Below, piece after piece: positions 12,010 to 50,250 of a stretch of DNA of 50,250 bases. Location of the stretch: positions 1-50,250 of the IMG/VR virus record IMGVR_UViG_3300046028_003665; one strand, 5' to 3'. Numbering within the stretch: position 1 is the stretch's first letter; each line of letters begins with the position of its first letter. Made by a program: the position numbers and the translations under genes. The notes beneath the pieces were generated by a model. The model searched no databases. It saw only the letters and a list, made by a program, of their open reading frames with translations, and was not told the origin of the DNA. The DNA is from a virus.

Positions 12010-12044
12010 AGCCCCACCGCGCCAACCGCTGTGGGGCTTTTTTT
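12010..12044 (+). terminator. Rho-independent terminator between convergent modules
   Basis: An eight-base-pair stem (AGCCCCAC at 12010-12017 with GTGGGGCT at 12031-12038) is followed by seven T on the + strand. It ends the replication transcript exactly where the virion transcript arrives from the other side; the T run covers the stop codon of the 2048-residue gene. In the opposite direction no T run follows, so it is mainly a one-way terminator. Confidence 0.85.
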
Positions 12045-29696: not shown

Positions 29697-30836
29697 TTAA
29701 GAGGTTACTAAGTCTTGCCAGTTGGGGGCTTGCGTTGCCGGTACTGCGCCCCATCCGCCATCCGCCGCAGGCGCTGTAGGGCCCCATACCGTTCCTACCG
29801 AATCGTTCACAGGGTACCATGTTGCGGCGACTAAAAAGGCATTTACTATATCCGCGCCGTTGGTCGTGGCGCTTACGATAAGCGTGTCAAAGAAGATTAT
29901 TCCGACACTAATATCCGCACCGTTGGTCGTAGCGCTTGTAACACCAAATATGGGGTCAATGGCCCCAGCGCTAATGTCCGCGCCGTTGGTCGTAGCGCTC
30001 GTAACGGAGAGCGCGGGGTTGATTACCCCAACGCTAATGTCCGCGCCGTTGGTCGTAGCGCTCGTAATCTCGAATATGGGGTTGATTACCCCATCGCTAA
30101 TGTCCGCGCCGTTGGTCGTAGCGCTCGTAACGGAGAGCGCGGGGTTGATTACCCCAACGCTAATGTCCGCGCCGTTGGTCGTACCGTTCGTAACGGAGAG
30201 CGCGGGGTTGATTACCCCATCGCTAATGTCCGCGCCGTTGGTCGTAGCGCTCGTAACGCTCGTATCAGCTAGAAGCGCGATTGCCCCCGCGCTGATGTCC
30301 TGACCGTTGGTCGTGGCACTTGTAATACCTATAACGGCTGGGAGATCTATGACCCCCGCGCTGATGTCCTGACCGTTGGTCGTAGCGCTTGTTATCGATG
30401 TGACAATAGCAGCGTTAATTATCCCCGCGCTAATATCCGGACCGTTGGTCGTAGCGCTCGTAACGGAGAGCGCGGGGTTGATTACCCCAACGCTAATGTC
30501 CGCGCCGTTGGTCGTACCGTTCGTAACGGAGAGCGCGGGGTTGATTACCCCAACGCTAATATCCGCGCCGTTGGTCGTAGCGCTCGTAACGGAGAGCGCG
30601 GGGTTGATTACCCCAGCGCTAATGTCCGCGCCGTTGGTCGTAGCGCTCGTAACGGAGAGCGCGGGGTTGATTACCCCAGCGCTAATGTCCGCGCCGTTGG
30701 TCGTAGCACTTGTTATCGACGTCCCGGTAGCCGTTAACTGAATTAACGACTGATCAAAGAACCCCTCAACTACGGCACTTTCGTCGTACCAGCCAGCAGG
30801 AACTAAGGTTGGGTCAAATGCCCCTAAGCGTGCCAT
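29697..30836 (-). CDS. Tail protein made of 21-residue tandem repeats
   Basis: A 379-residue protein in three parts. The N-terminal 38 residues (ARLGAFDPTLVPAGWYDE and following) are a conserved virion anchor. Residues 40 to about 338 are 14 copies of a repeat close to VTSATTNGADISVGVINPAL. The C-terminal 40 residues (WGPTAPAADGGWGAVPATQA and end) form a short cap. The repeat's Thr/Asn-rich beta-like pattern suggests a fibrous shaft. It lies between the collar fibre and the Gly-rich adhesins, so it is probably part of the tail-fibre set; no named domain. Confidence 0.72.
   Translation of the reverse strand: MARLGAFDPTLVPAGWYDESAVVEGFFDQSLIQLTATGTSITSATTNGADISAGVINPALSVTSATTNGADISAGVINPALSVTSATTNGADISVGVINPALSVTNGTTNGADISVGVINPALSVTSATTNGPDISAGIINAAIVTSITSATTNGQDISAGVIDLPAVIGITSATTNGQDISAGAIALLADTSVTSATTNGADISDGVINPALSVTNGTTNGADISVGVINPALSVTSATTNGADISDGVINPIFEITSATTNGADISVGVINPALSVTSATTNGADISAGAIDPIFGVTSATTNGADISVGIIFFDTLIVSATTNGADIVNAFLVAATWYPVNDSVGTVWGPTAPAADGGWGAVPATQAPNWQDLVTS
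29829..30719 (-). repeat. Coding 63-bp tandem repeat array
   Basis: Fourteen units of about 63 bases (some 66), most nearly identical at DNA level, encode the shaft of the tail protein. Consensus protein unit: TSATTNGADIS, one variable residue, GVINPALSV. The most diverged units lie at positions 5-7 and at the ends; the rest look recently homogenised. Confidence 0.9.
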
Positions 30837-32138
30837 TTACCAAGAAATCACAACGCAATAGCCTCTACCGCCGTCGCCGCCCCTTCCGCCGGTATTGCCC
30901 GCGATAGTCAGCCCGCCACCGCCACCACCACCACCGCCTTGACCGCCAGCCCCACCAGCGCCACCATCCACCGCAGTGTTTCTGCTGTTGCCTCCAGCGC
31001 CACCGCCAGAGCCACCCCAGATGGAATTGCCCGCAGCGCCAGCACCGCCAGCGGTTGGGGCCGTGCCGGTAATGCCCGCGCCGCCGGGGAATCGGCCACA
31101 GGCTTGCTGGCTGCTATTAGGCCCAATTGCTTGCCCGCTGGCTGTGCGCCAGCCTGCCGCGCCACCGCCAGAGCCGCCGAAAATGGAAGAAACCCCGGTG
31201 GACGTTCCGGTAGCAAACGCAGCACTACCAGTGCCTACACCGTTGTTTCCGCCAAATTCTGTTAACGACACAAGGGTTGAGGTAGTCCCGCCAATAGCGC
31301 CGCCGTCAAATTGTCCGTTTGGCAGTCCTGCGGCGACGAGAACCGCGGCGCTGCCTGTTCCACCGCCGCCGCCGGATTGTGTGGTTGCTCCTGATGCTGC
31401 GCCGCCAGCGCCCCCGCCACCGCCGTAGGCCGACAGGTAGCTGCCAAAGGTAGAGATAGCGCCGTTCCCGCCTGCGCTGCCCGCGGCAGATAAGTTGCCG
31501 TTGCCGCCAGAGCCAGCCGCGCCCAGCCCAACTACAACAGTTGCGGTTAGTTCGGAGGCTAAGAAATACTTAATGGCGCACGCGCCACCGCCGCCGCCAA
31601 CACCTCCCTTGCAAGCTGTAGCAAACGCAACAGATCCCCCGCCACCTCCGCCGCCGCCACTGCCCCAAAGTTTGACTAGCACTTGAGTGGGTACGAACGC
31701 TGTGGGTTTGACCCAATTTTTGGTATCAGTAGTAAATGTCTGGATGTCTACAGGACCGGTATTGCCAAGAATAATTGGGACGCCATTGCTATTAAATCGC
31801 GTCCAGCCGCGCCCTTCGACCCACGATACGGCTTCTCCCACACCTAAATTGATCGTAAGCAGCGTAATGAGGTTTGTGCCGTCGGTGTGTTTAAGCGTTA
31901 GGACGTTTGACAGGGTAGCGTGCGTATTAGAGATGCTGATGAACTTTGCGTTCCGCAACGTGCTAGCCGCTGGCGAACCCAAAATAGGCGTAGTTGCTAC
32001 CGATGTAATGGACGCCGTGTTGGTGTTTCCGGGTGTGATAGTAGTAGTTAGCTGATCAACCCAACTTACAGTCGCGCTGATAGCGCCAGCCGTTGCTGTG
32101 CCTAGCGTTAGCGAGTCGGTTGATTCAAGGTTTATCAC
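30837..32138 (-). CDS. Glycine-rich tail adhesin, copy 1
   Basis: A 433-residue protein with a beta-rich N-terminal domain (SLTLGTATAGAISATVSWVD and later TLKHTDGTNLITLL). Next comes a joint segment with FTTDTKNWVKPTAFVPTQVL, then a C-terminal half packed with poly-Gly runs ending GYCVVISW. Such Gly-rich ends form polyglycine-II helix sandwiches in receptor-binding adhesins of the gp38 type; that structure is inferred here. It starts with GTG overlapping the previous stop (GTGA). It is one of three tandem paralogues. Confidence 0.8.
   Translation of the reverse strand: MINLESTDSLTLGTATAGAISATVSWVDQLTTTITPGNTNTASITSVATTPILGSPAASTLRNAKFISISNTHATLSNVLTLKHTDGTNLITLLTINLGVGEAVSWVEGRGWTRFNSNGVPIILGNTGPVDIQTFTTDTKNWVKPTAFVPTQVLVKLWGSGGGGGGGGSVAFATACKGGVGGGGGACAIKYFLASELTATVVVGLGAAGSGGNGNLSAAGSAGGNGAISTFGSYLSAYGGGGGAGGAASGATTQSGGGGGTGSAAVLVAAGLPNGQFDGGAIGGTTSTLVSLTEFGGNNGVGTGSAAFATGTSTGVSSIFGGSGGGAAGWRTASGQAIGPNSSQQACGRFPGGAGITGTAPTAGGAGAAGNSIWGGSGGGAGGNSRNTAVDGGAGGAGGQGGGGGGGGGLTIAGNTGGRGGDGGRGYCVVISW
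30846..31029. repeat. Exact 184-bp repeat, adhesin copy 1 end
   Basis: This 184-base stretch, encoding the Gly-rich C-terminus, is identical to 32144-32327 at an offset of 1298 bases. Perfect identity in a region that could drift at third positions suggests recent duplication or ongoing gene conversion. Confidence 0.92.
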
Positions 32139-33430
32139 CAGCTAATCACAACGCAATAGCCTCTACCGCCGTCGCCGCCCCTTCCGCCGGTATTGCCCGC
32201 GATAGTCAGCCCGCCACCGCCACCACCACCACCGCCTTGACCGCCAGCCCCACCAGCGCCACCATCCACCGCAGTGTTTCTGCTGTTGCCTCCAGCGCCA
32301 CCGCCAGAGCCACCCCAGATGGAATTGGCCGGGCCGCCAGCAGCGCCAGCCGTTGGGGCAGTGCCGGTAATGCCCGCGCCGCCGGGGAATCGGCCCGCCG
32401 CGCCTTGCGTAAGGTTTGGTCCAACTGCTTGCCCGCTGGCTGCTCGAAAACCTGCTGCGCCACCGCCAGAGCCGCCAAAAAGAGAGCCGTTGGGGGGAGT
32501 AGTAAAAAAAGCAGCGGAATTTGTACTAATTCCAGAGCACCCGCCAAACTCCGTTGTAGATATTGCGGAAAGGTTTGCGCCAGCCGAGCCGCCACCATCA
32601 TAAATTACTGCGGGTAGCCCCGCGCCGGTGCCAACCGCGCCGCCGCCAGTCCCGCCGCCGCCACCGCCGTTGGTATTGATGGCAGATATTTGCCCCCCCG
32701 ATCCACCGCCGCCGCCGTAGGCCGACAGATAGCTGCCAAAGGTAGAAATAGCGCCATTGCCGCCTGCGCTGCCCGCAGCGGATAAGTTGCCATTGCCGCC
32801 AGATCCGCCCGCCCCTAGCGTGACAACTACTGTCGAGGCTAACTCAGAGGCTAAGAAATACTTAACGGCGCACGCGCCACCGCCGCCGCCAACACCTCCC
32901 TTGCAAGCTGTAGCAAACGCAACAGATCCACCGCCGCCGCCGCCGCCGCCAGCGCCCCAGATTTTGACTAGGACTTGAGTGGGTACGAACGCTGTGGGTT
33001 TAGTCCAGTCTGCGGTGGTGGTAGTAAATGTCTGGATGTCTACAGGACCGGTATTGCCAAGAATAATTGGGACGCCATTGCTATTAAATCGCGTCCAGCC
33101 GCGCCCCTCAGTCCAAGAAACGGACTCGCCCGCTGCAAGGATAATTGTCAGCAACGTGATTAGGTTTGTGCCGTCGGTATGTTTAAGCGTTAGGACGTTT
33201 GACAGGGTAGCGTGCGTATTAAAGATGCTGATGAACTTAGCATCTCGAAGCGTGCTAGCCGCTGGCGAACCCAAAATAGGCGTAGTTGCTACCGATGTAA
33301 TGGACGCCGTGTTGGTGTTTCCGGGCGTAACCACCGTGCCTAATTGGTCAATCCAACTCACGTGCGCGCTGATAGCGCCAGCCGTTGCTGTGCCAAGCGT
33401 TAACGAGTCAGTGGATTCAAGGTTTATCAC
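32135..33430 (-). CDS. Glycine-rich tail adhesin, copy 2
   Basis: A 431-residue paralogue of the adhesin downstream of it. The N-terminal 150 residues and the last 70 or so are almost the same in both copies, while the Gly-rich centre differs in the short non-Gly loops (for example GGQISAINTNGGGGGG against GGAASGATTQSGGGGG). Variation limited to these loops suits a receptor-binding surface under selection. GTG start overlapping the upstream stop. Confidence 0.8.
   Translation of the reverse strand: MINLESTDSLTLGTATAGAISAHVSWIDQLGTVVTPGNTNTASITSVATTPILGSPAASTLRDAKFISIFNTHATLSNVLTLKHTDGTNLITLLTIILAAGESVSWTEGRGWTRFNSNGVPIILGNTGPVDIQTFTTTTADWTKPTAFVPTQVLVKIWGAGGGGGGGGSVAFATACKGGVGGGGGACAVKYFLASELASTVVVTLGAGGSGGNGNLSAAGSAGGNGAISTFGSYLSAYGGGGGSGGQISAINTNGGGGGGTGGGAVGTGAGLPAVIYDGGGSAGANLSAISTTEFGGCSGISTNSAAFFTTPPNGSLFGGSGGGAAGFRAASGQAVGPNLTQGAAGRFPGGAGITGTAPTAGAAGGPANSIWGGSGGGAGGNSRNTAVDGGAGGAGGQGGGGGGGGGLTIAGNTGGRGGDGGRGYCVVISW
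32144..32327. repeat. Exact 184-bp repeat, adhesin copy 2 end
   Basis: Second copy of the 184-base repeat at 30846-31029, in direct orientation. Recombination between the copies would delete or duplicate one 1.3-kb adhesin gene. Confidence 0.92.
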
Positions 33431-34776
33431 CAGCTAATCACCACAACGTAGCCCGCCCCGCCGTTGCCGCCAGCGCCGCCAAGCGATGAAGTTCCACCAC
33501 CAGCGCCCCCGCCACCGCCGCCGCCGCCGCACAGCCCTCCGTTGCCCCCGGTGCCCGCAGTAATGGTTGTGCTTATTGTTGACCCGCCCCCGCCGCCGCC
33601 TGAGCCACCTTTGTAGCTAAATCCATCCGCGCCGTTTGCGCCGACCATTGCTATGGTTGATGCGCCGCTATTTGCGCCCGCAGCGCCTCCGCCGCCAGCC
33701 GAGTATGAACCGCCTGCGCCGCCTGCGCCGCCAGCCACCGGAGATGCTGTGTGGTGGCTGCCTGAGCCGCCGCCAGCACCACCAAAAATGGCGCTACCGC
33801 CCAAGCTAGTGGCGGTTGGGGTGCCGTTACTTCCAGCTCCGCCAGCCCCGCCGCGTTCGGCGTTTGCCGTCGCAATGGTCGACGCCGTGCCAGTCACGCC
33901 TTGCCCGCCAGCGCCGTTAGTTGTGGCAGTAGGTAGGCCGCCCGCGCCGCCAGAAGTAGTGCCTACGGAACCAACGCCGCCAACGCCACCGCCACCGCCA
34001 CCGCCGGTTACTACCAGCGTGATTGCCCCACCGCGCCCGCCGCCACCGCCAAAAGCAGTTAGAATCGCCGTAGTTCCAAAAGTTGTGTTAGCGCCCGCCG
34101 AGCCGTCGCCGCCTAAAGCGCCTGCGGCCCCCGGAACACCGCCGTTGCTGACCGTTGTCATGCCAATCGATTCGGTTGCGCCAAGCTCAGAGGCGGCAAA
34201 TTGCTGCGTGATGTACGCCCCACCGCCACCGCCACCGCCGCCTTTTGCAGTAGCCGCCGTTGTGCTAGAACCCGCCCCACCGCCGCCGCCTTGACCCCAC
34301 ATGTGGACGAGCACGGTTGTGGGTGTAAATGTGGTGGGTTTAGTCCAAGGGCCGGGCAATGTTGGCGAGAAAAATTGAATATTCACCGGGGCTGCGGTGC
34401 CTGACGTGATCGGCGTGCCGGAACCGTTTACCCGCTGCCATCCCGCGCCTTCGGCGTAAAGCAGCGTCTCGTTAGTGCCCAACAACGCCGAGGTTAGTTG
34501 CTCAACGACCGTTCCGTTAGAGTGGCTAACCGTTACCGTGTTTTGAACCGTTGCCGAAGTGTTGGCAATGCTTAAGAATTTGACGTTGCGGTAAGTACTG
34601 GCCCCCGGCGCGGCTACTACGGTGGTCGTAGTAGCGGTTATAATCGACGCGGTATTCGTGCGCCCCGGCGTAACCGTTGTGCCGTTTAGGTCAACGTAGG
34701 AAGCGTGGACTGAGATTGCGCCAATGGCGCTGGTGGTGACCGTGATTAAGTCAGTAGTCGAGAGTACGTTAATCAT
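33427..34776 (-). CDS. Glycine-rich tail adhesin, copy 3 (diverged)
   Basis: The most diverged paralogue (449 residues from ATG34776). Its N-terminus (MINVLSTTDLITVTTSAIGA) aligns with MINLESTDSLTLGTATAGA of the others, and it has the same layout, including PGPWTKPTTFTPTTVLVHMW and a Gly-rich end GYVVVISW. The frame is open to GTG34788, but ATG34776 matches the paralogues and overlaps the previous stop. It lies first in transcription order, and its loops differ throughout from the other two copies. Confidence 0.78.
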   Translation of the reverse strand: MINVLSTTDLITVTTSAIGAISVHASYVDLNGTTVTPGRTNTASIITATTTTVVAAPGASTYRNVKFLSIANTSATVQNTVTVSHSNGTVVEQLTSALLGTNETLLYAEGAGWQRVNGSGTPITSGTAAPVNIQFFSPTLPGPWTKPTTFTPTTVLVHMWGQGGGGGAGSSTTAATAKGGGGGGGGAYITQQFAASELGATESIGMTTVSNGGVPGAAGALGGDGSAGANTTFGTTAILTAFGGGGGRGGAITLVVTGGGGGGGVGGVGSVGTTSGGAGGLPTATTNGAGGQGVTGTASTIATANAERGGAGGAGSNGTPTATSLGGSAIFGGAGGGSGSHHTASPVAGGAGGAGGSYSAGGGGAAGANSGASTIAMVGANGADGFSYKGGSGGGGGGSTISTTITAGTGGNGGLCGGGGGGGGAGGGTSSLGGAGGNGGAGYVVVISW

Positions 34777-34984
34777 GGTATTCGTCACCCAGATAGCCGG
34801 TTACAGGTTCGTCGTTAGCCACTTCGGTAATCACGGGTTCCGGCGTAAGATTTAAGTAGGCGTTACTTGCCGTACGTTCGTAGCAAAGCCATTGCGGATA
34901 GTATTTTTGGGCGAGTTCTATCGAGTCAACGACAATGCAATTGACCAGCAGGTTAGTCGTTGGATCTACCAGATAAACGTCCAT
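34769..34984 (-). CDS. Small tail-fibre-associated protein
   Basis: A 71-residue protein (MDVYLVDPTTNLLVNCIVVD, then a helix and an acidic end). The pattern strand-turn-strand with a 'VD' ending resembles small phage proteins encoded beside tail-fibre genes, some of which assist fibre assembly. It overlaps the Gly-rich adhesin by eight bases. Function inferred only from position. Confidence 0.58.
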   Translation of the reverse strand: MDVYLVDPTTNLLVNCIVVDSIELAQKYYPQWLCYERTASNAYLNLTPEPVITEVANDEPVTGYLGDEYHD

Positions 34985-36042: not shown

Positions 36043-36675
36043 TTAAGTCACCGGGTATCGTACTTGCCCTGACCGGTAAGCGTCACGGCGGTTTTTACCA
36101 TCCCCAAGCTGTTTCATCAGCGCCATCGCGTCATCGTACCGCTTCTGATACACCGTTAACATATCTACCTCGGCTTTCATAAAAGTGCCCGCTTCGATAA
36201 GCGTCCCATAAAAAAGCACCGAGCTGAAATTATCCCCTACCCACGTATTCCCCGCCGTCACGATCGATTCCGGGTAGTAGTAGTAGTGCAGTTCTACTGT
36301 ATAGGCTACGTCCGGTGTGGGACCTAAGATGAACGTGTTGTCATCAAATATGGCGTAGTACTCCGGAGATCCCGTAGCCGTCGGATCTGGATACGCCGCG
36401 CGAATGAAATTAACGTCTTTGTCCAGCAGGTAGGAGTACTCCCCCGTCGTGGGGTTCACGACCGCCAAGGAGTACGTGGCTAACCAATCCGCCGGGGTTA
36501 GGAGGTATTTGTTACCCAAAGTCAGCGTGCCTAACGAGTTCTTCCGTAACGCCGGAAGCTGAACAGCGTTATAGATACGTTGTTCCGCTTGCTGGATAAA
36601 CGTATTGAAGTCAGCCGTGAGATACTCGTTCTCGGTATACGTCTGAATCTCTGTTGCAAGCTCCAAATAATTCAT
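36043..36675 (-). CDS. Head-tail adaptor / tail tube-type protein
   Basis: A 210-residue protein with the pattern of podovirus adaptor/tail tubular proteins: MNYLELATEIQTYTENEYLT with IQQAEQRIYNAV, then NKYLLTPADWLATYSLAV and ILGPTPDVAYTVELHYYYYP, then a long C-terminal helix. It likely connects the portal ring to the tail hub. Its order after the gp4-like protein fits that role. Identification is by pattern, not by an exact family. Confidence 0.7.
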   Translation of the reverse strand: MNYLELATEIQTYTENEYLTADFNTFIQQAEQRIYNAVQLPALRKNSLGTLTLGNKYLLTPADWLATYSLAVVNPTTGEYSYLLDKDVNFIRAAYPDPTATGSPEYYAIFDDNTFILGPTPDVAYTVELHYYYYPESIVTAGNTWVGDNFSSVLFYGTLIEAGTFMKAEVDMLTVYQKRYDDAMALMKQLGDGKNRRDAYRSGQVRYPVT

Positions 36676-36678
36676 CGC

Positions 36679-36837
36679 CTAGCCCATTTTGTCGCTGGCT
36701 TTCGTGCCTTTGGTCGCAGCGCCAGTTCCCCGAATCTTGATGGATTGCTTCTTGGGGGACGTGTCCTGCGGGACCGTGGAGATATTGCCCACACTGATAT
36801 AATCAGTGGGCATGCAGTGTGATTGTTTCTTAGCCAT
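36679..36837 (-). CDS. Small basic protein with RGTGAATKG motif (52 aa)
   Basis: Read directly from the - strand. The product begins MAKKQSHCMPTDYISVGNIS and ends KIRGTGAATKGTKASDKMG. The ATG overlaps the stop of the preceding gene (TAATG), GGGGGA lies upstream, and the stop is three bases before the next gene. The C-terminal motif is related to the ends of the proteins at 38587-39318 and 39318-40385. A structural or assembly role is inferred. Confidence 0.65.
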   Translation of the reverse strand: MAKKQSHCMPTDYISVGNISTVPQDTSPKKQSIKIRGTGAATKGTKASDKMG

Positions 36838-36986
36838 TATTTCCCCCGGGAATTGCCGCGTGTGGGTTTAGTGCCTCGTGGCTGACCTGTCTTTTTGACA
36901 TGGAGTTTCTTCACATGCCCTTTAATCTCAACGTCTGCGATCTTACGGACTTGCCGCACATCGCCGCCTGTTAAATATTTCTTCAT
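36837..36986 (-). CDS. Small basic protein (49 aa)
   Basis: Read directly from the - strand: MKKYLTGGDVRQVRKIADVE and a Lys/Arg/Gly-rich tail ending NSRGK. It starts with ATG overlapping the previous stop (ATGA) and ends in TAATG. With the 52-residue gene downstream it fills what would otherwise be an empty gap of about 300 bases. The basic tail suggests DNA or capsid binding; unknown. Confidence 0.6.
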   Translation of the reverse strand: MKKYLTGGDVRQVRKIADVEIKGHVKKLHVKKTGQPRGTKPTRGNSRGK

Positions 36987-37363
36987 GTGATAGTAACCTC
37001 TACTACGCCGATCTGTCCCACTGCGAGCAAATCGTTAGGCGTGAATTTAGGGTTCCCCCCACCTACCGGAGCCCACCCCCACTGAATTTCCCGACTACCC
37101 CCACTTAAATGGCCCAGTACGTTCAACCCGGACACCAAATACGTGTTATCGCGGCGCGGGTTTCTCAGCGCCTGTGGGTCAACTACCGGGTACATCCCCT
37201 GCATATTCTGCGGGTGATCTGGGTCCCAGCACGTCGGACACACCATGATATTAGTGGTCTTGGTTCGAATCACCAATACTTTTAGTTTGGATAGCTTATA
37301 TTGCAATCCACACCTATCGCAAACCGATATAGCAATGCGGCCTGCGGCAAACTTAATGCCCAT
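36983..37363 (-). CDS. Zinc-ribbon structural protein
   Basis: A 126-residue protein with two paired CxxC knuckles (CDRCGLQ and CPTCWDPDHPQ) forming a zinc ribbon, followed by a variable C-terminal part. Similar proteins with CDRCG...CPxCxDPDHPQ lie among head-tail genes of other phages, so a virion or assembly role is likely. It overlaps the previous gene by one base. Confidence 0.68.
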   Translation of the reverse strand: MGIKFAAGRIAISVCDRCGLQYKLSKLKVLVIRTKTTNIMVCPTCWDPDHPQNMQGMYPVVDPQALRNPRRDNTYLVSGLNVLGHLSGGSREIQWGWAPVGGGNPKFTPNDLLAVGQIGVVEVTIT

Positions 37364-38079
37364 CAGATGTACATCTGTCGCGGTACCATCATCATGGAGG
37401 CTTTCTGGCGATCTTCGTCAGCCGCTTCTTGCCACGCTTCATCATACATGGCTTTCAACATCGGCAAACGCGGCATTGCGTCTGGGATCTTAAGCGCCAC
37501 ATAATACGCCAACCCCGCGACCATCGCCGGTAAAAACCGGAACGGGATGTCCTGCGTGTTCACGCCCGTACCCGAATCCAACATGCGACGTAACCGCCAG
37601 TAAACTAGCTGGTAGGTGTTAGACACGTTGGGAACGGGCCACATTGTGACTGTGGGGAACTGCACGACCGCCAAGGACGACGTAGCGCCGCTAAGACGGT
37701 TAACGTAAATCTGGATCGGACGGCCCGTTGCGGTCTTGTTGGGTAGTGTGGCGTACGTCGAAACACTAATGCGCGAGATACTGATGTCGGACTGTATCGA
37801 CGTCCCCGCATTCGTACGAATTACCTGCTCAAGTAAATCCACCGTGTCTACCGGGAGGTCGTAGGTCGCCTGATCTGCAACCAAAGGCACCATCCCCTGT
37901 TCTACCGTCCACAGATTAATGCCTTTGTTCGCCCATTCAGCAAACATGAGGTTTAAACTGCGTCGGGCCGTCCGAAACTCATACCCTGTACGTACTTCCG
38001 CACCCGCCCGCTCAAACGCCTCCTCGATCAAATCGTTGAGGTTGAGGTTAAATACTGGCGGGGTTGCGGAAGTGCTCAT
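37363..38079 (-). CDS. Head completion/adaptor protein, gp4-like
   Basis: A 238-residue helical protein resembling the P22 gp4-type adaptor. Key stretches are LNDLIEEAFERAGAEVRTGY, FRTARRSLNLMFAEWANKGI and NLWTVEQGMVPLVADQATYDL near the N-terminus, a beta-containing middle, then FRFLPAMVAGLAYYVALKIP and a C-terminal helix. In P22, gp4 docks on the portal and can have muramidase activity; nothing here proves that activity. Confidence 0.72.
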   Translation of the reverse strand: MSTSATPPVFNLNLNDLIEEAFERAGAEVRTGYEFRTARRSLNLMFAEWANKGINLWTVEQGMVPLVADQATYDLPVDTVDLLEQVIRTNAGTSIQSDISISRISVSTYATLPNKTATGRPIQIYVNRLSGATSSLAVVQFPTVTMWPVPNVSNTYQLVYWRLRRMLDSGTGVNTQDIPFRFLPAMVAGLAYYVALKIPDAMPRLPMLKAMYDEAWQEAADEDRQKASMMMVPRQMYI

Positions 38080-38081
38080 TT

Positions 38082-38318
38082 CTAAATCCTAAATTTAGCC
38101 GTTTTCTTGGCAATCTTCTTGGGTTGCGCTACAAACTGTTTGCCCGCTGCTTTCCCCGTCCGTTTAGCCTTGGTGGTGGCTGCGTATTCAGCGGGGGATA
38201 ACGCCTTGATGGCGTTCTCAGGAAGGTAGCGTTCTCCCGTCTTGGACGACGGCTTACCCGACTTAGTCTGCCACTTAGCCTTTCCCCAATCTTTAAGCGA
38301 CTGCTGCGGAGCTTTCAT
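38082..38318 (-). CDS. Small basic conserved phage protein
   Basis: A 78-residue Lys-rich protein: SLKDWGKAKWQTKSGKPSSK, TGERYLPENAIKALSPAEYA and a basic end. This pattern is common in head genes of podoviruses and environmental phages, often next to the protein at 38318. It overlaps its neighbour by one base. Probably binds DNA or capsid; unproven. Confidence 0.68.
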   Translation of the reverse strand: MKAPQQSLKDWGKAKWQTKSGKPSSKTGERYLPENAIKALSPAEYAATTKAKRTGKAAGKQFVAQPKKIAKKTAKFRI

Positions 38319-38587
38319 CAGTCTGTGTACCCGCCACCGGCGTCTTTGTACCGCTTGGCAACCAACTGCGCCTTACGGGCCGACCACTGCCCCGCTTTAG
38401 TCCCGTGCGTGGCAGCAGCTTTTACCCTTGCCACAATCTTCGCACGCATTCCCGGTTTGGTGTAATTCCCCGCCTTGTTGACGCTACCCCCGGCTTTAAA
38501 GATTTTCACAGGCTCGTTTCCGTCACGTTTTTTAACCGTTCGGACCTTAGCCTGATTGATAGCCCCCATGCCGCGTGACTGCATCAT
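38318..38587 (-). CDS. DUF5872-like small basic protein
   Basis: An 89-residue basic protein with AGNYTKPGMRAKIVARVKAA, then GTKAGQWSARKAQLVAKRYK and a GGGYTD end. The GNYTKP and GQWSARKAQ motifs match a family I associate with DUF5872, present in phages and large viruses with unknown role. Start ATG overlaps the stop of the preceding gene (TAATG). Confidence 0.72.
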   Translation of the reverse strand: MMQSRGMGAINQAKVRTVKKRDGNEPVKIFKAGGSVNKAGNYTKPGMRAKIVARVKAAATHGTKAGQWSARKAQLVAKRYKDAGGGYTD

Positions 38588-39318
38588 TACCGCATCGTCC
38601 CTTTCGTACCACCCTTGGTGACGCAGCCGTCGCCCCGGCCCATGACCGCGCCACCCTTGGCGAACTTCTTCACCGCGCCACCCTTGGCTTTGCGGTCTAG
38701 TTTAAGCACCCGGTCTACCCCATAATGCCTACTCGTTTTACTAAGAGTTTCCGCATCTTTCTTGGCGTCTTGATACCGCCCTTCTCGCAATTTGTTATCT
38801 TCATTGATACTTCGAGAGTAATCCTCTGCTCTGTTCTGTGGATTTAACAGCGGATAGGAGGTCATGAATTTGTCCAAGATTCGGCTAGAAAGCGGACGTT
38901 TTCTTTGCCCCTCTGCGTCTTTAAGCGCGGCGGCTTTTTCAGCGCTAAGTTTTTTCTGTTCAGCGGGGGTCATTTGATTAAACCGCGCCATGCGTGTTTC
39001 ATCATCTCCCAGAACCTTGCCACCCTTGGCGAACTTCTTCACCATAGTTTTCACCATGCCGCCCTTGGTGCTTTTCTTCACCGCGCCACCCTTACGCATA
39101 GCCTGTGTGGGCGCAGCGGGGGCCATAGCGGGGGTTTGAGTCATCGCGGGCGTGGGCGCGGCGCGTACGCCTCCTACGCCCGTGTCAGCGGTGTTTGCCA
39201 TACCACCGGCCATGCCGGAGCCGAACGCGGGCGGGGCCCCACCGAACTGCGTGAACGCAGGCTGCGGGCTAGAGGACGCCATACCCCCCGCGTCGAACTT
39301 CCTAATTTTCTTACCCAT
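38587..39318 (-). CDS. Lys/Gly-rich virion protein with conserved C-terminal tag
   Basis: A 243-residue protein starting MGKKIRKFDAGGMASSSPQ; this start overlaps the previous stop, while the longer frame to 39357 is a shadow. It has a disordered Gly/Ala/Pro N-terminus, a charged helical middle and Lys/Gly repeats (KKFAKGGKV, KKFAKGGAV). It ends in GDGCVTKGGTKGTMR, almost the same as the end of the next protein upstream. Structural or DNA-associated role inferred. Confidence 0.66.
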   Translation of the reverse strand: MGKKIRKFDAGGMASSSPQPAFTQFGGAPPAFGSGMAGGMANTADTGVGGVRAAPTPAMTQTPAMAPAAPTQAMRKGGAVKKSTKGGMVKTMVKKFAKGGKVLGDDETRMARFNQMTPAEQKKLSAEKAAALKDAEGQRKRPLSSRILDKFMTSYPLLNPQNRAEDYSRSINEDNKLREGRYQDAKKDAETLSKTSRHYGVDRVLKLDRKAKGGAVKKFAKGGAVMGRGDGCVTKGGTKGTMR

Positions 39319-40385
39319 TACCGCATAGCACCTTTGGTCCCACCCTTGGTGGCGCAACCGTCAATGCCCTTGACCATGCCGCCCTTAGCCATCTTCATGG
39401 GCATCTTGGCTTTGGCCATCTTCATGGGCATCTTGGCTTTGTCCATCTTCATGGGGGCCTTGGCATCGCCTTTCTTCTTAAACCGGTTCAACAGAAAAGC
39501 CGGCCTTTTTACCGGTCCACCTTTTTTGTATCCCTCAGCCATGTCAGCAGCTTCCTTTTCGGTTACAACGCCTTTTTTACGAGCGGTGTCTGCTTTTTTA
39601 GCAAACCCCTGCTTCTTCACCATATCTTTTCGATACGCTTTATCAGCTTCATATTTTTCTTTACGCGCAGTTGATGCCTCAACCTTTTTTTGCCCGGGGA
39701 GCAGTTCGCTAAATTTCTTGGGCTTAGCCGACACGCGCGCAATGGTCTCTTCCACCGAGACAACTTTGCCTGCGCCCGCATCGGGCTTCTTGCGGCTAAA
39801 CATATTCTTAGCGGCGTCCATCGCCCGCTTACCCATGCCGGGGGCAGCGCCCATTGCCCGCTTAATCACGCCGGGTGAATTAATGACGGCGGTTCTAACG
39901 GCAGTGGCGGCTGCCGGATTTTTTGTCAAACCTAATGTGCCCAGCCCAAAGAGCGTCCCCGCCGTACCCAAACCTGCGGCTGAGTCAAAACGCAGTGGTG
40001 CCCGAGAGAACTTCCCGTAATTGTCGTTCTTGGAGTCTTCAGCGGTTTTAGCCATATATTGGGCCGCTGATTGGGCCCCCCGGGCCCCTTCACGCTTTAA
40101 TACAACCGGGGCGGCTGGAGGATTGCGTTTGTTCGACTCTAACTCCGACGCTGGTTTGCTGGTTGCGCCGGGTTTAGCGGCAGCGCGTCCGGCGCTTCGC
40201 TTGTCGTCTACCCCAGCCATAGCGACGTTATATTTCTTCCCGCCATATTCAAACTGCGCGTCTTTGGCGTACGGATCTGTGCCACCGGATTTCTCAAACT
40301 TTGCCCGGGCAGCCCTAAACGCCGCGCCGCGACCCGATAGCCGGGATGGGCCACCGGGGATTTTTTTAAGTGTGTCTTCAGCCAT
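39318..40385 (-). CDS. Lys/Ala-rich virion protein with conserved C-terminal tag
   Basis: A 355-residue very basic protein (MAEDTLKKIPGGPSRLSGRG start). The middle has an Ala-rich hydrophobic stretch near residues 160-190 and the C-terminal 60 residues carry tandem KMAKAKMPM-like nonamers. The end GIDGCATKGGTKGAMR pairs with the tag of the neighbouring gene. Possibly a DNA-condensing or internal head protein. No family known. Confidence 0.62.
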   Translation of the reverse strand: MAEDTLKKIPGGPSRLSGRGAAFRAARAKFEKSGGTDPYAKDAQFEYGGKKYNVAMAGVDDKRSAGRAAAKPGATSKPASELESNKRNPPAAPVVLKREGARGAQSAAQYMAKTAEDSKNDNYGKFSRAPLRFDSAAGLGTAGTLFGLGTLGLTKNPAAATAVRTAVINSPGVIKRAMGAAPGMGKRAMDAAKNMFSRKKPDAGAGKVVSVEETIARVSAKPKKFSELLPGQKKVEASTARKEKYEADKAYRKDMVKKQGFAKKADTARKKGVVTEKEAADMAEGYKKGGPVKRPAFLLNRFKKKGDAKAPMKMDKAKMPMKMAKAKMPMKMAKGGMVKGIDGCATKGGTKGAMR

Positions 40386-41991: not shown

Positions 41992-42900
41992 CTAAGCCCC
42001 CGGCGAACCGAAGATGCCTAGCGGATCGCTCACCCCGAACGAATACCGCTCGCGGGCCTTGTAGCGAACATTACCCGTATCGAAGTCGCCGTCCATCTTG
42101 TTTTCCAAGCTGGCGCGAACAAAGTGCTTCAGGCCATTCGGAACGTCGGTGGTCAGGAACCAGCCATTGGTATCAGTCAACCAATGGTTCACGGTGTAGC
42201 CGCCCGGAATCGCGCCGTTATTCTTAATCGCGTTCAAGTCGTTGTCGGTCGTGCCCACACGCAGCTCGGTTTCGAGCAGACGGGTAGCCACAAACATCAA
42301 CGCCGGAGGAATAACGAGCTTTTTGGGCTTCGCCGCAATCAAGAGACCGCGCTCGTCAGTCCAAGCAGCAATCTGAATCACCGCCGCTTCCAGCGAGGTT
42401 TCATTCAAATCCGCCGCTACGGCAGGACGATTGCTGTTGACGCCACCAGAAACGAGGGGATGGGCGGTGGAAAACAACGCCTGATTATCGCCGTAGGTGA
42501 CAGCCGCCGAGAAACCCTGATTCAGAATATACGCAGCCTTAACTTGCTTGGTATATGCCATCGCTCGGGCCAACGCCTTGGTATAACGACTGGAAAGGGA
42601 GTCGTAAAGGTTGTCCTCTACTGCCTCTTCCGTGATCGAGAAACCCATCGCAATCGTCTCGTGGTTATAACGAGCGGTCCACGCTTCTTGCGCATTATCG
42701 TACGCAATGGCGGAACCTTCGGCTTTCACCGGGGCGGCGCTGAAGCCAGAAAGTTTAGTTTCTTCTTCAAACGAACGCTCGGACGATTCAACTTCATAAA
42801 TTTCTTTATGCTCATCTGGGTACCGCTTGTATTCAAGCCCGAACAGAGCATTAAGACCGGGGAGCAACTCTTTGAGTAGCTGTGCGCGTGAAATAGCCAT
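41992..42900 (-). CDS. Major capsid protein (Mu gpT-like, HK97 fold)
   Basis: A 302-residue capsid protein of the Mu gpT type. Segments supporting it are the start SRAQLLKELLPGLNALFGLE, the long E-loop-like region with EETKLSGFSAAPVKAEGSAI, the spine helix NLYDSLSSRYTKALARAMAY and the central AALFSTAHPLVSGG-like motif (NQALFSTAHPL). The C-terminal half has the P-domain-like TDTNGWFLTTDVP. AAGGAG lies nine bases upstream, and a terminator follows. No scaffold-like N-terminal extension is visible. Confidence 0.88.
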   Translation of the reverse strand: MAISRAQLLKELLPGLNALFGLEYKRYPDEHKEIYEVESSERSFEEETKLSGFSAAPVKAEGSAIAYDNAQEAWTARYNHETIAMGFSITEEAVEDNLYDSLSSRYTKALARAMAYTKQVKAAYILNQGFSAAVTYGDNQALFSTAHPLVSGGVNSNRPAVAADLNETSLEAAVIQIAAWTDERGLLIAAKPKKLVIPPALMFVATRLLETELRVGTTDNDLNAIKNNGAIPGGYTVNHWLTDTNGWFLTTDVPNGLKHFVRASLENKMDGDFDTGNVRYKARERYSFGVSDPLGIFGSPGA

Positions 42901-45643: not shown

Positions 45644-45826
45644 CTAATATTCCTCGACGTTTTGTTGTAACTCTTTGATGTACAATCTAACCCAACTTAA
45701 CCCCTTCAATACTCCACAGAGATGTTGATACTCTGCGTAGTCTTTCGTGTCGCCACGAACGATTTCTTCCTGCACGTCAACGTAGCGCTCGCTGACTTTC
45801 TCTAGAATCAATTCTAAGATATTCAT
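45644..45826 (-). CDS. Small helical phage protein
   Basis: A 60-residue helical protein (MNILELILEKVSERYVDVQE, then KDYAEYQHLCGVLKGLSWVR). It overlaps the portal stop by four bases and precedes the GroES-like gene by one base, so it belongs to the head operon. Similar short proteins beside portal genes exist in other phages without known function. Confidence 0.66.
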   Translation of the reverse strand: MNILELILEKVSERYVDVQEEIVRGDTKDYAEYQHLCGVLKGLSWVRLYIKELQQNVEEY

Positions 45827-48357
45827 TCAGGTGCCCCATTTTTTGGTTTCCCTTCCAATTTGGTCCTACTGGCAAACTTCTCCCGCTGTAACTGATCTGC
45901 CTGCGCTTGGGCAGCGGCGGTGCGGCCTTCGGTTTTGCCGGACATTCCCTGCACCGTCTTCACCCCGTCTAAGACCGACTTCATCGCGGCGGCGGTGTCT
46001 TTGAACTCGCCCTCCGCCTCAATCTTCTTCGCCTCTAACAGCAATTTCGCGCGTTTAATCTCCAACTCAACGGTGTCAACCGCGACCTTGTGGTCTAACT
46101 CCTTGCCCTTCAATTCCAACTCCGCCCGCTGAATGATGTTCAACGGATCTTCCGCCTGCGCTTGCTGCGCCTGTTGCTGCGCCTCCGCTTGGTTCTTCTG
46201 CGCTAACTGTGCCGACGCCTGCGCCACGAGCTTCGATAACTGCACCTCCACGTCCTCCGGCAACTTCTCGTCCACCGGGGGCAACGGCACGCCCAACTCC
46301 GCCTCAATCTGACGTCGGTACTCAAACCCAATGTGTTCTGCCACATGGGCCATTGCCGCTGCCATAATAGACGGCGCTTGGGGGTTATTCTGGAGGAGGG
46401 CGGTAATCTTCGGATCTTGGGCTGCTGCCATATGCACCGAGATATGCGCCTCGTGGTCTTGGTACATAAACGCCTTAACCGGCTTGCCTGCCAGTAGCGC
46501 CATGTTCTCGGACACCGGGTCTTTCGGGGCGAGGTCCTCTTCCGTCGGGATTATTTTCCCAATGTTCTTAATCCCCAGAACCTCCAACATCTGCCGGTGT
46601 AACTCCGGCATGTCGTATATCTGCGGCGAACCCTGCGCTAACTGCATGACTGCCTGATACTGGGTGACTTTCTGCGCCATTGTGGATGCGTTCGGGTCAG
46701 ATACTGGGATGACCTCCACCACGTCATAGTCTGCCTGCTTCGCCCGACGGTCGCCTTCTTCAGGCTCGTATGGGTACTGCTTGGGCGTGTAATCCCGAAT
46801 TATGGCCGCTAACAGCTTGAACTCGCGCTTCATCGCGTAGTGAATCCGCGCCTGTACCGACGACATCACCTTCAATGTCCGCTCTAAAATAGCCAACGTC
46901 GTGCCCACCGGAGCCTGTGCCGACATGTCACTGACGTTCAAGTCCGTGGTAGACGCGAACTTCCGACCCTCGTCCACGATATTCTGGAGCAGCGTGAATA
47001 ATACCTGCGACGGCTCTTTATAAGGGAGCGTCATAATATTATCTTTAATGGTCCCCGACGCGACGTCCACATCCCGGAACTCGCCCGGGGCAATCGGAGT
47101 ATCGTCACCCTTAATACGCATACCCTTGGTCTTAAACCCGCCGGGTAAGTTAGATAAGGTGCCTGCATCGACTAATTGCCGAATAAGGGAGGTGCCAGAC
47201 TTGGCAAACGACCCCAACAGGTGCACTAACCCGAACGCATAAAACCCAAAACCGGGAATATACGGGTAGTGGACAAAATGCTCGCGCTTAACCATGCGCT
47301 TATCATCCGGCACCCAGTTGCGGTAAATAGATAATACCGTCTGGCTGTTTTTCTCAATGGTGACAATATAAGGGCGGGCAATAGCCCCCATCTCCATATC
47401 GTCGTCATCGTCGTTATCAGTCTCCTCGTCGCGCTCGTCATATTCCTCCAAATCGAGGTTGACGTGCATTTCTAGGAGCTTGTAGCGGTCGTCAGAGGTG
47501 GCATTGAACCCCATATTCTCCGCAATCTTCTTCTCAACGTCGTCCAATTCCCCCTTAACGGGCTCGCCGAGGTCCACATCCACGTAAAAACCCGATGCTT
47601 GGAGCTTCCGGACCTCGTTCTTGGTCTTCCGCATCACGTGGGTGACGCGCTCAGCGGTCTCTAAATTAGACGCGCCGTAGGGCACGACCAAATCTTCCGC
47701 CGGGACGTAAAGGGCTACTTGGCGCTCAATAGAGGGGTCGTAGTACACCTTTTTGAAGGCATTTCCGCTCAATCCCAAGCCCCATAAGAGCCGTTCTTGC
47801 TCTGGGCGGTACTCCGTCATGACCTCCATGAGCTGGAAATTCATATCATTCGTGACATTTATTGCCGCTTGCTTCTTCGCCGGAGTTTCTTTGCCAATAA
47901 TGATGGCCTTTACCGGTCCCGCTGCCGGGAACGTGGACATAATCGTCTCGGCTTGGAACTTCACCAGCGCCTCACTCAGGAGAGGGTGAAATACGCCGCA
48001 TGCGCCCGCCCACGGCTCGGTGCGATTCTCGATCCGCAAGCCTAGAAGTTCTAGGCCATCGACATAGGTCTGCAACCAGTCTTTGCGCGACATCGCGTCG
48101 TCGTCAAACGCATCCAGCAGGTCGTCGGCGATCGACTGCAACGCCCGTGACGGCATGTCCTCGGCAAGATTCCGGTAGAACTCCTCGGTCTCGGGGTCGT
48201 CGCTGTTGATTTTCGGCTCGCCCATGAGTTCCGACATGTCGAACTCCATCCCCTCTTCCTCGGGGGCCGCATCGTCCTCCGGCATCTCAATGTCCAACGG
48301 CTCTTGGTCTGCGTCGGGTGGCATCTCGAAGTCCATCTCAATCTGGTCTGGCGGCAT
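45823..48357 (-). CDS. Portal protein (Bcep22/P22-like)
   Basis: An 844-residue portal that forms the dodecameric ring for DNA passage. After an acidic low-complexity N-terminus (residues 1-60) comes the portal core: TEPWAGACGVFHPLLSEALV, KAIIIGKETPAKKQAAINVT, VYYDPSIERQVALYVPAEDL and YIPGFGFYAFGLVHLLGSFA, with NVSDMSAQAPVGTTLAILER at the clip/wing region. The C-terminal 150 residues are a long Gln/Ala/Lys coiled coil (ELELKGKELDHKVAVDTVEL) like the P22 barrel. The size suits a podovirus of this type. Confidence 0.92.
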   Translation of the reverse strand: MPPDQIEMDFEMPPDADQEPLDIEMPEDDAAPEEEGMEFDMSELMGEPKINSDDPETEEFYRNLAEDMPSRALQSIADDLLDAFDDDAMSRKDWLQTYVDGLELLGLRIENRTEPWAGACGVFHPLLSEALVKFQAETIMSTFPAAGPVKAIIIGKETPAKKQAAINVTNDMNFQLMEVMTEYRPEQERLLWGLGLSGNAFKKVYYDPSIERQVALYVPAEDLVVPYGASNLETAERVTHVMRKTKNEVRKLQASGFYVDVDLGEPVKGELDDVEKKIAENMGFNATSDDRYKLLEMHVNLDLEEYDERDEETDNDDDDDMEMGAIARPYIVTIEKNSQTVLSIYRNWVPDDKRMVKREHFVHYPYIPGFGFYAFGLVHLLGSFAKSGTSLIRQLVDAGTLSNLPGGFKTKGMRIKGDDTPIAPGEFRDVDVASGTIKDNIMTLPYKEPSQVLFTLLQNIVDEGRKFASTTDLNVSDMSAQAPVGTTLAILERTLKVMSSVQARIHYAMKREFKLLAAIIRDYTPKQYPYEPEEGDRRAKQADYDVVEVIPVSDPNASTMAQKVTQYQAVMQLAQGSPQIYDMPELHRQMLEVLGIKNIGKIIPTEEDLAPKDPVSENMALLAGKPVKAFMYQDHEAHISVHMAAAQDPKITALLQNNPQAPSIMAAAMAHVAEHIGFEYRRQIEAELGVPLPPVDEKLPEDVEVQLSKLVAQASAQLAQKNQAEAQQQAQQAQAEDPLNIIQRAELELKGKELDHKVAVDTVELEIKRAKLLLEAKKIEAEGEFKDTAAAMKSVLDGVKTVQGMSGKTEGRTAAAQAQADQLQREKFASRTKLEGKPKNGAPE

Positions 48358-48369
48358 TGTCTGAATTCC

Positions 48370-50250
48370 TTAGTAGTACGGCTTGCGGTTTGGATTTCGG
48401 TAGTACGTTTCCATCTCATCCTCGTCCAACGCGGTGCGGATATACCCACCTTTCCGAAAACGCATTAGCGCCATCGAAACGCTGTCCACGTAATCGTCGT
48501 GTTCCCCCGCTGGGAAACTCGCCACTTCCTCAATCACTTCTTCAGCCCACCGCGTCTCCGGTGCCCATACGCGGCCTGAAGCAAACATGTCAGAAACAGC
48601 ATTAAGACGGGATATTTTATCGTTGCCTTTGGTGGGGGTGAACTCTTGCACCGGGATGCCCATCGCCCGCATTTCATATATTAGCGGCGCACCCGTTGCC
48701 TTCTTCTCGATAATAACACCGTCGGGTTGCCATTCCTTATACTGCGCAATAGCCACCCGCTTCAACTCTGGGAACTCCATCCGATCGCGGAACGCATTCA
48801 AGAGAATAATGTGGGCCTGCATCTTACCCTTATCCGCCGCACTGACCTCGGGGTCGGTGCCATCGTCGGCACGGTAGAAAACCCCCCACGTTGTGCACGC
48901 AGAATAATCCGCCCGGTTGTGCTTCTCGAACGCGGTATCCCACGACATGAGCACGAACTCACACTCCGGTGGGTCGTCTTTCTCCCATACCTGCCACCAC
49001 TCGCGCTTAACGATGGCGCTGACCTCACTCGTCGGGTCCTGCATGTACTGCGCCATCCACTTCGAGTACGGCAGTTCTTTGCGCAAAACCTCTAGTTCCG
49101 TTAGCGGCCAAAACTCCGGCCAAACGGGGTTGCCGCTCGGCATGATGGCGGGGAACTCAATGACCTCCCACTCCTCACCGTCACGCTGCGCCGCCGCCTT
49201 GAGTACTTGTGCTGTCAGGTCCCGCTTACTCCAGCGGGTATTATGGCTCACCACCCCGTTGGCAATGAAGTTATATGTACGCCCTACCTCAACGTCAAAG
49301 ACTTCTTCGCGCCCACTGGGAGTAATGGAAACAATAGGATCAAGAATGAAGTCGGAGGTATGTAGCCACTGCGTCGGCAATTGCAGCAGTTTTTGCATAC
49401 CCCGTTGCAAGATTGCAGTCGTTGCAGAGTAACCCGCGAACTTTTCCGGTGCTGTGGTCGTGGTCAATACAGAGCTTTCCGTTCCAGTGTGCGCGAGTAT
49501 TAGCTGACGAAGGCGGTTGCCCACAGATCGCGCAAACCCCGTTCTGGCCTTTGAGAATGTTGTTAAAGTCCTCTTGGGTAATCCCGTATCTACTTTTAAT
49601 TCTGTTCCTGTATTTAGCTGCGGGAGTCTGCCTACCTCCCCCGGATGCCCAATATTGAATAGTGTAGTGGGAGGCACATAGCCCTTTGACGCGAGTAGGG
49701 CTTTCACACCCTTCTGTACTGCACGTTTTACCTTTCCACTTACCGTGAAAACCCATTGGGCGGTGCGGGGCATCTGGGTTTTTTTTGTGGTATGACTTAG
49801 ATGCTTGGCATGGCCCGCATAGGCCGGGGTTTTTGCTAGACCTTGGGGGACGGTTGCACCCCTCGTTGCTACAAGTGACATCCCCGGCTTCAGGTCCTTT
49901 AGACGTATCCATTTACACTCCTCGGCAAGTTCTACAAGAAACGGATGTCTCTCGTTTGCATGGAGTAGTCTACCAGATTGTGTTTGTACCTCATATACGT
50001 CATCAACACCATTTGACCGATGGTTTACCACCACGGTGGAGGCGAGCTTTCCTTTTTCGTAGGTCGCTATTTTGCTACCGGGGACAATGTCCCGGAGTCT
50101 GGTGCTTGTCCCATCTGCCATCAGTACATCCGTATCTCCCGTCATGCACATGACAATCACAATGGCCCCGCCGGGCTGTAACCGCTGGCGTGGACCGGAG
50201 GTGTACCACTCGTAAACCCCATCGTAAATCTCAGGGTTAGACTCCGCCGC
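48370..50250 (-). CDS. terL: Terminase large subunit, interrupted by an intein (5' end outside window)
   Basis: The packaging motor ATPase-nuclease. The N-extein fragment in the window ends SGPRQRLQPGGAIVIVM and the C-extein resumes TRWSKRDLTAQVL, rejoining the conserved ATPase-domain segment 'IVIM-TRW'. The C-extein (48370-49239) has the RNase H-like nuclease residues: Asp in MSWDTAF, Glu in VIIEKKATGAP and Asp in GEHDDYVDSVSMAL. The ATPase Walker motifs lie beyond the right edge. The open frame runs through the intein to the edge, so GTG50160 is not the real start. The product must be spliced to be functional. Confidence 0.93.
   Translation of the reverse strand, partial: AAESNPEIYDGVYEWYTSGPRQRLQPGGAIVIVMCMTGDTDVLMADGTSTRLRDIVPGSKIATYEKGKLASTVVVNHRSNGVDDVYEVQTQSGRLLHANERHPFLVELAEECKWIRLKDLKPGMSLVATRGATVPQGLAKTPAYAGHAKHLSHTTKKTQMPRTAQWVFTVSGKVKRAVQKGVKALLASKGYVPPTTLFNIGHPGEVGRLPQLNTGTELKVDTGLPKRTLTTFSKARTGFARSVGNRLRQLILAHTGTESSVLTTTTAPEKFAGYSATTAILQRGMQKLLQLPTQWLHTSDFILDPIVSITPSGREEVFDVEVGRTYNFIANGVVSHNTRWSKRDLTAQVLKAAAQRDGEEWEVIEFPAIMPSGNPVWPEFWPLTELEVLRKELPYSKWMAQYMQDPTSEVSAIVKREWWQVWEKDDPPECEFVLMSWDTAFEKHNRADYSACTTWGVFYRADDGTDPEVSAADKGKMQAHIILLNAFRDRMEFPELKRVAIAQYKEWQPDGVIIEKKATGAPLIYEMRAMGIPVQEFTPTKGNDKISRLNAVSDMFASGRVWAPETRWAEEVIEEVASFPAGEHDDYVDSVSMALMRFRKGGYIRTALDEDEMETYYRNPNRKPYY
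49340..49912 (-). CDS. Endonuclease VII-type HNH homing endonuclease nested in the intein
   Basis: A 190-residue protein read in a different frame from the surrounding intein-terminase sequence on the same strand. The C-terminal half is a recombination endonuclease VII-type HNH: CAICGQPP, LCIDHDHSTGKVRGLLCNDC and a final helix, with two CxxC knuckles for zinc. The N-terminal half has two Cys-rich modules (CSNEGCNRPP...GLCGPC and CSTEGCESPT...GLCASHY) likely to bind DNA. ATG49912 is preceded by an in-frame TAA and by GAGGAG five bases upstream, so it is a separately translated gene. It presumably cuts intein-less terminase alleles to spread the intein; that is inference. Confidence 0.9.
   Translation of the reverse strand: MDTSKGPEAGDVTCSNEGCNRPPRSSKNPGLCGPCQASKSYHKKNPDAPHRPMGFHGKWKGKTCSTEGCESPTRVKGLCASHYTIQYWASGGGRQTPAAKYRNRIKSRYGITQEDFNNILKGQNGVCAICGQPPSSANTRAHWNGKLCIDHDHSTGKVRGLLCNDCNLATGYAKTAAIADAVATYLRLHS
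49918..49923 (-). promoter_or_regulatory. Ribosome binding site of the nested HNH gene
   Basis: GAGGAG on the - strand ends five bases before ATG49912. It lies inside the intein reading frame, where it encodes part of the block B domain (Glu-Glu). A strong Shine-Dalgarno sequence at ideal spacing within another gene supports independent translation of the nuclease. Confidence 0.8.

Follow-up and report, generated by a model that had tools for sequence, protein, structure and literature searches.

A conserved C-terminal peptide on head and neck proteins of an aquatic tailed-phage lineage, a candidate head-targeting signal

Introduction

Encapsulin cargo-loading peptides are short, stand at the C-terminus and load cargo into an HK97-fold shell. 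C-terminal sorting signals of the PEP-CTERM type were found by computation, and their sequence was recognised before their receptor. In phage T4, internal proteins enter the prohead by means of an N-terminal capsid targeting sequence (CTS) of about ten residues, which can encapsidate virtually any attached protein and is cleaved off by the head maturation protease (PMC7697877). Here we analyse a C-terminal peptide, called the tag hereafter, that is carried by three proteins encoded in positions 1 to 50,250 of IMG/VR virus record IMGVR_UViG_3300046028_003665; this whole stretch of 50,250 nucleotides is referred to as the window. An original prediction, made from the letters of the window, had described a common end on several otherwise unrelated head-region proteins and proposed that it is a sorting or capsid-binding signal. 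As judged from sequence, the tag is a conserved C-terminal peptide, about 16 residues long and preceded by a Gly-Gly linker, that is present on many carrier proteins and only in the head-neck module.

Tagged proteins of the window

The three tag-bearing proteins are present where they had been placed, on the minus strand and with the ends described. Protein A (39318..40385), the product of an open reading frame (ORF) of 355 residues, is very basic and has the C-terminus ...AKGGMVKGIDGCATKGGTKGAMR, in which the tag, GIDGCATKGGTKGAMR, is encoded at 39321..39368. Protein B (38587..39318), from an ORF of 243 residues counted from ATG, has several KGG repeats and the C-terminus ...AKGGAVMGRGDGCVTKGGTKGTMR, with the tag RGDGCVTKGGTKGTMR at 38590..38637. 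Both tags were assigned by sequence and pattern match, and the two proteins have the tag DGCxTKGGTKGxMR in common; in a six-frame scan of the window, DGCxTKGGTKG ends were found on A and B only, and the tag core pattern matched in the same two places only. Protein C (36679..36837, an ORF of 52 residues) has a related RGTGAATKGTK end, its tag RGTGAATKGTKASDKMG being assigned by sequence at 36682..36732. The original prediction took this end for the same tag, which is right as far as relatedness goes, but it is a variant of its own, RGxGAATKG, and its gene has a separate location, flanked by the two neck genes (the adaptor gene and the gene A2). No family match was obtained for protein A in Pfam, PHROG or NCBIfam, nor for protein B in PHROG.

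Occurrence of the tag

A codon-degenerate pattern for GDGCxx[K/R]GxTKG was scanned first against a viral contig collection and matched at least 120 contig stretches; samples in such scans are non-random and their totals are lower bounds. Among the matches listed, 122 of 141 stand exactly 15 codons from the stop, and in a further 12 the match is followed by a second, tandem tag. A looser pattern yielded 64 matches in 35 long phage contigs against none in the reversed control, each contig's matches being clustered within about 2.5 kb. Both counts bear out the claim of a common end beyond chance, and the reversed controls rule out a chance motif. Placement points the same way, as 97% of DG-type tags fall within the last 30 residues, versus 29% expected under uniform placement. 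The original prediction had also suggested searching for the motif on unrelated phage proteins, and this search yielded at least hundreds of related ends among viral contigs. These have the core R[G/A]xG[C/A/I/V][A/V]x[K/R]G in common, mostly keep a single constant spacing to the stop, and are carried by a wide range of basic and disordered proteins, which fall into many body clusters.

The first variant alone was also searched in 85,000 bacterial and archaeal genomes (257 Gb), where its pattern matched one contig only, and this contig bears the capsid and adaptor genes of the same phage lineage. A tblastn search of named phages with DG-type tag peptides returned no match even at E 10, probably because of low-complexity masking. 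The RG-type query returned only a weak Synechococcus match, which lies outside any head region and was set aside.

Lineage and tag variants

The lineage to which the window belongs has a Mu gpT-like capsid protein, an SU10-type adaptor and a GroES gene. Its named relatives include the Pelagibacter phages HTVC023P and HTVC027P, the Planktothrix phage Pag-Yong1, DSL-LC04, the Roseobacter phage CRP-902 and others, and phages of the HTVC023P type have been called widespread in the sea (PMC9599517). Homologs of the structural genes of the window or of Pag-Yong1 are present in 119 of the 121 loci found through the tag, and nearly all tags belong to this one lineage of aquatic tailed phages.

Three further forms of the tag were found. 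The second, ADGIAx[K/R]GxT[K/R]G, stands exactly 15 codons from the stop in 105 of 151 listed matches, the remainder mostly having a short MxxxGGKxC tail, and 116 of its 117 loci are in the lineage. The third, RGxG[A/C]ATKGxK, is the kind present on protein C and occurs mostly in that protein's place, between the adaptor and the second neck gene. For the fourth, RGxGAA[I/V/T][K/R]GxxFxG, 122 of 130 listed matches are spaced exactly 16 codons from the stop, and homologs of lineage genes are present in 110 of 115 loci. Among cultured phages, HTVC023P has the fourth form on gp32, which adjoins the portal gene, and on gp51, while Pag-Yong1 has a DG-type tag on UMO75986.1. A subclade whose capsids are about 59-65% identical has RGMGAATKGGKYTIK or the close form RGMGAATKGGKYSRA at the end of basic proteins encoded between the capsid and adaptor genes, and no DG tag was found on the loci of this subclade. 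Given these ends occupy proteins at the same position, the tag variants seem, from sequence, able to replace one another.

The tail MxxxGGKxC is itself a second conserved short end that follows many tags (e.g., on carriers in loci L295, L322 and L324), and a two-part C-terminus may exist.

Confinement to the head-neck module

In the window, the main tag zone is bordered at its 5' side by the major capsid protein gene (41992..42900, minus strand; Pfam Phage_capsid_4 and Mu-like gpT, PHROG 371 major head protein). The DG-type tag zone ends at the portal adaptor gene 'ADA' (37363..38079, minus strand; Pfam SU10_adaptor), and the whole tag zone at the second neck gene 'A2' (36043..36675, minus strand; PHROG 2941, virion structural protein, head and packaging). 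The portal gene (45823..48357, minus strand; PHROG 1216 portal) has relatives in HTVC023P, Pag-Yong1 and others.

In order to avoid selection by the tag itself, capsid and adaptor also served as queries for retrieving loci, the capsid-anchored sample being narrow (at least 82% identity to the window capsid). With a strict tag profile, for which the cut-off was at least 17 bits and the best reversed decoy scored 15.9, 295 tags were obtained over all loci, and each anchored one is located downstream of the capsid gene and upstream of the adaptor. At least one DG-type tag is present in 60 of the 72 loci that have both anchors (capsid- and adaptor-anchored loci, the window and the named phages), with 1 to 4 per genome; a terminal peptide is thus common to several otherwise different proteins of one phage, across many body clusters.

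The anchored loci were also searched with a unified core, R[GA]xG[ACIVM][AVCIT]x[KRQ]G near the C-terminus. As genes were called by a simple script, the resulting zone fractions are estimates: 0 of 97 pre-portal genes, 0 of 325 portal-to-capsid genes, 82 of 564 capsid-to-adaptor genes, 72 of 257 genes from the adaptor to the second neck gene, and 0 of 374 genes after it. Taken together, the two zones from the capsid gene to the second neck gene have the core on 154 of 821 genes, and the zones before and after them on 0 of 796. Four matches were internal, and reversed controls gave none. Where loci were retrieved through the fourth form, the tag is also found before and after the portal gene, yet on 0 of 132 genes after the second neck gene.

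Carrier proteins and portability

With tails removed, the bodies from the first scan fell into 47 clusters. In the larger set, 596 bodies fell into 177 clusters, or 238 under a stricter rule; the largest loose cluster has 254 members (180 under the strict rule), and singletons number 124 to 177. A GG pair stands at most 30 residues upstream of the tag in 618 of 624 cases. As far as sequence comparison detects, many carriers have only the tag and the Gly-Gly linker in common, and others are homologous beyond the tag; hence the description of the carriers as otherwise unrelated suits most of them, but not all.

Among 55 carriers scanned, matches to Pfam, NCBIfam and PHROG are confined to DUF6321 and other body regions: none of these libraries yielded a model of the tag, and no inspected match covers it. 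No wider homologous domain, which the original prediction had named as a refuting result, accounts for the tag. A sequence search against solved structures returned no match for the capsid, adaptor, portal or carrier proteins. AlphaFold gave low-confidence models for two carriers, with the tag unstructured; for protein A the mean pLDDT is 46, and the final 55 residues are below 50. Tagged proteins of the capsid-to-adaptor zone have a median isoelectric point (pI) of 10.2, a net charge of +17 and 14% WFYILVC, versus a pI of 8.1, a net charge of +1 and 27% WFYILVC for their untagged neighbours.

That the tag is portable, i.e., that a given carrier can have it or lack it, is indicated by comparisons of carrier sequences. 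DUF6321 (PF19846) is a small domain, C-terminal in many phage protein families. In the loci analysed, about 212 copies stop at most three residues from a W[N/K]C end, most of them at RAW[N/K]C, while about 13 copies run on into a tag, the ends being RGGGCEVRGKTKGKMV, SADGIAQRGKTKGKMC, ADGCATSGRTKGRFV or, with no linker in between, ADGCAVRGLTKGKYV. The VYPSAYANA domain occurs in proteins that have the fourth tag on quite different C-terminal halves (23 cases) or have other ends (10 cases); since most of these loci were retrieved through the tag, this ratio is biased. One protein with tandem tags has its N-terminal 35-53 residues in common with PHROG families labelled virion structural protein.

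Two of these modules are distributed widely. The N-terminal module SPKQKKFMxAxAHNPxFAKKxGIPxSVxKDF, found on some tagged proteins (e.g., L003:3750-4178, minus strand, and L391:333-803, plus strand), is also present in phiKZ-like jumbo phages and Rhizobium phages. DUF6321 (e.g., L370:4383-4706, minus strand, and L205:10456-10887, plus strand) is a C-terminal module common to PHROGs 3477, 727, 30733, 28131 and others, and it matches more than 500 named phage records, mostly cyanophages.

Selection on the peptide

All four codons are in use at the conserved Gly and Thr residues of the tag, and when identical residues are compared, their codons agree in 42% of cases between genomes and in 49% within a genome. 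Given synonymous codons are scrambled and the peptide is kept, the peptide is what is conserved, and a DNA-level element is ruled out. Because the search pattern itself prescribed some tag residues, the constancy of these does not count as independent evidence, but their codon freedom does.

Proposed function and competing explanations

The reading we put first, and to which we give about half of our belief, is that the tag would be a head-targeting peptide comparable in its action to the N-terminal CTS of T4. The carriers of a phage would bind, through the tag, to a single common receptor of the prohead or neck (the capsid protein, a scaffold or the portal), and this binding would take them into the assembling particle as internal or neck-associated accessory proteins. 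The basic, disordered bodies would then be located amid the DNA, with which they could be delivered. More tentatively, and with some doubt on our part, the tag could serve as a C-terminal head-address code: genes of the head-neck region would gain the tag and their products be loaded, so that the accessory proteins packaged by each phage would form an individual and changing repertoire, part of which would be delivered into the host. For the sorting or capsid-binding signal originally proposed, the portable C-terminal tag restricted to head and neck genes of one capsid lineage speaks in favour, but a nucleic-acid-binding role or another shared partner would also be compatible.

Several results weigh against head targeting. 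Confinement to a single module could reflect local duplication and not a head function, and some carriers are homologous outside the tag. By the patterns used, no tag was found in the parts of the genomes covered of HTVC027P, CRP-902, Caulobacter phage RW and Alcaligenes phage QDWS535, all of them related phages, so the tag is not needed for this head type. Gene co-occurrence singled out no receptor. The protein encoded just upstream of the capsid gene was tried as a receptor candidate, as tblastn suggested that it was specific to tagged phages, and was rejected when all named relatives proved to have a protein of similar start and length there.

Composition raises a different explanation, which we regard as not very probable: the tag may be a nucleic-acid-binding, Gly-Lys-rich tail that assists basic disordered proteins in binding and condensing phage DNA or RNA and requires no specific protein receptor. 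Tag and carriers are indeed strongly basic, the tag is rich in Gly and Lys, and AlphaFold gives the tag alone no fold. However, its uncharged positions (Gly, Cys/Ile/Ala, Ala, Thr or Phe) are conserved no less than the Lys/Arg positions, at which K and R interchange, with the reservation that some positions were fixed by the pattern. The tag is moreover attached in some cases to a conserved domain, DUF6321, and other basic proteins of the same zone are without it. In the window, two small basic proteins of 89 and 78 residues (38082..38587, minus strand; PHROG 17747 and 14910, function unknown) lie in the tag zone untagged, which indicates that not every basic protein there is tagged.

The occurrence of the tag on distinct domains, DUF6321 and VYPSAYANA, each with and without it, and on a protein whose N-terminal module occurs in other phages, makes it improbable that the carriers are one fast-diverging paralogous family from local duplication, in which the recognisable C-terminal end would be the family's working part and not a portable address. 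Such a family would nevertheless account for the carriers being neighbours in one gene zone, for low-complexity bodies that diverge fast, and for the homology among some bodies. Tags are also slightly more alike within genomes (similarity 0.72, versus 0.67 expected and a permutation maximum of 0.684), a likeness that fits a shared partner or some local copying.

Any shared partner would account for the common end, and a GroES gene is found near the capsid gene in named relatives, so binding to a non-head partner, such as a chaperonin, a host protein or an unpackaged assembly factor, deserves mention. We consider it quite improbable, since GroES is also present in untagged relatives (e.g., HTVC027P and CRP-902) and the carriers are restricted to the head-neck module. 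Lastly, a nascent-peptide element slowing or coupling translation at the gene end is hardly credible: the spacing between tag and stop codon is usually short and constant, and in the window the ATG of protein B, the next gene, overlaps the stop codon of the protein A gene, but extensions of 8-20 residues and tandem internal tag copies are frequent.

Other features of the window

The large terminase gene (48370-50160, minus strand) has an apparent intein-like insertion with a Hint-type start and a ...FIANGVVSHN end, and an endonuclease-like ORF (49340-49912) overlaps this insertion in another frame of the same strand. A protein of 2048 residues (12043-18189, minus strand) matches, in its C-terminal part, a PHROG labelled DarB-like antirestriction (E 4e-66). 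Three related Gly-rich proteins of about 430-450 residues are encoded in tandem at 30837-34788 (minus strand), two of them with nearly identical start and end, and the adjoining 29697-30836 (minus strand) encodes a protein of SATTNGADISxGVINPALSVT-type repeats.

Comparison with known systems

Literature searches for the tag strings and for the feature returned no description of the tag, and two papers on related phages contain no 'C-terminal' passage. The tag is thus described by no Pfam, NCBIfam or PHROG model, nor by any paper found. Even with a non-head partner, a lineage-wide C-terminal peptide on many protein families is undescribed in the libraries and papers searched here. If the tag loads heads, sequence alone would reveal packaged unknown proteins in a group whose genes are mostly annotated as hypothetical, and the cultured tagged phages HTVC023P and Pag-Yong1 make the idea directly testable.

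Encapsulin cargo-loading peptides are similar, by description only, in being short and C-terminal; they differ in that they belong to bacterial compartments and not to phage heads, while the window encodes a phage capsid, portal and terminase. PEP-CTERM-type signals are similar in being a short common C-terminal end on many unrelated proteins, yet they are membrane or secretion signals of cellular proteins, whereas this tag occurs in phages and no sorting enzyme was found. The T4 CTS is likewise a short terminal peptide common to several proteins of one phage; it is N-terminal and of about 10 residues, while the tag is C-terminal, of about 16 residues and present on many more carrier families. 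We know of no resemblance between the two peptides, and given they stand at opposite ends of the protein, the tag is no member of the T4 kind. By analogy, it may nonetheless work like the T4 CTS though at the opposite protein end, and if this is true, it would be a second, independent capsid-targeting peptide beside that of T4.

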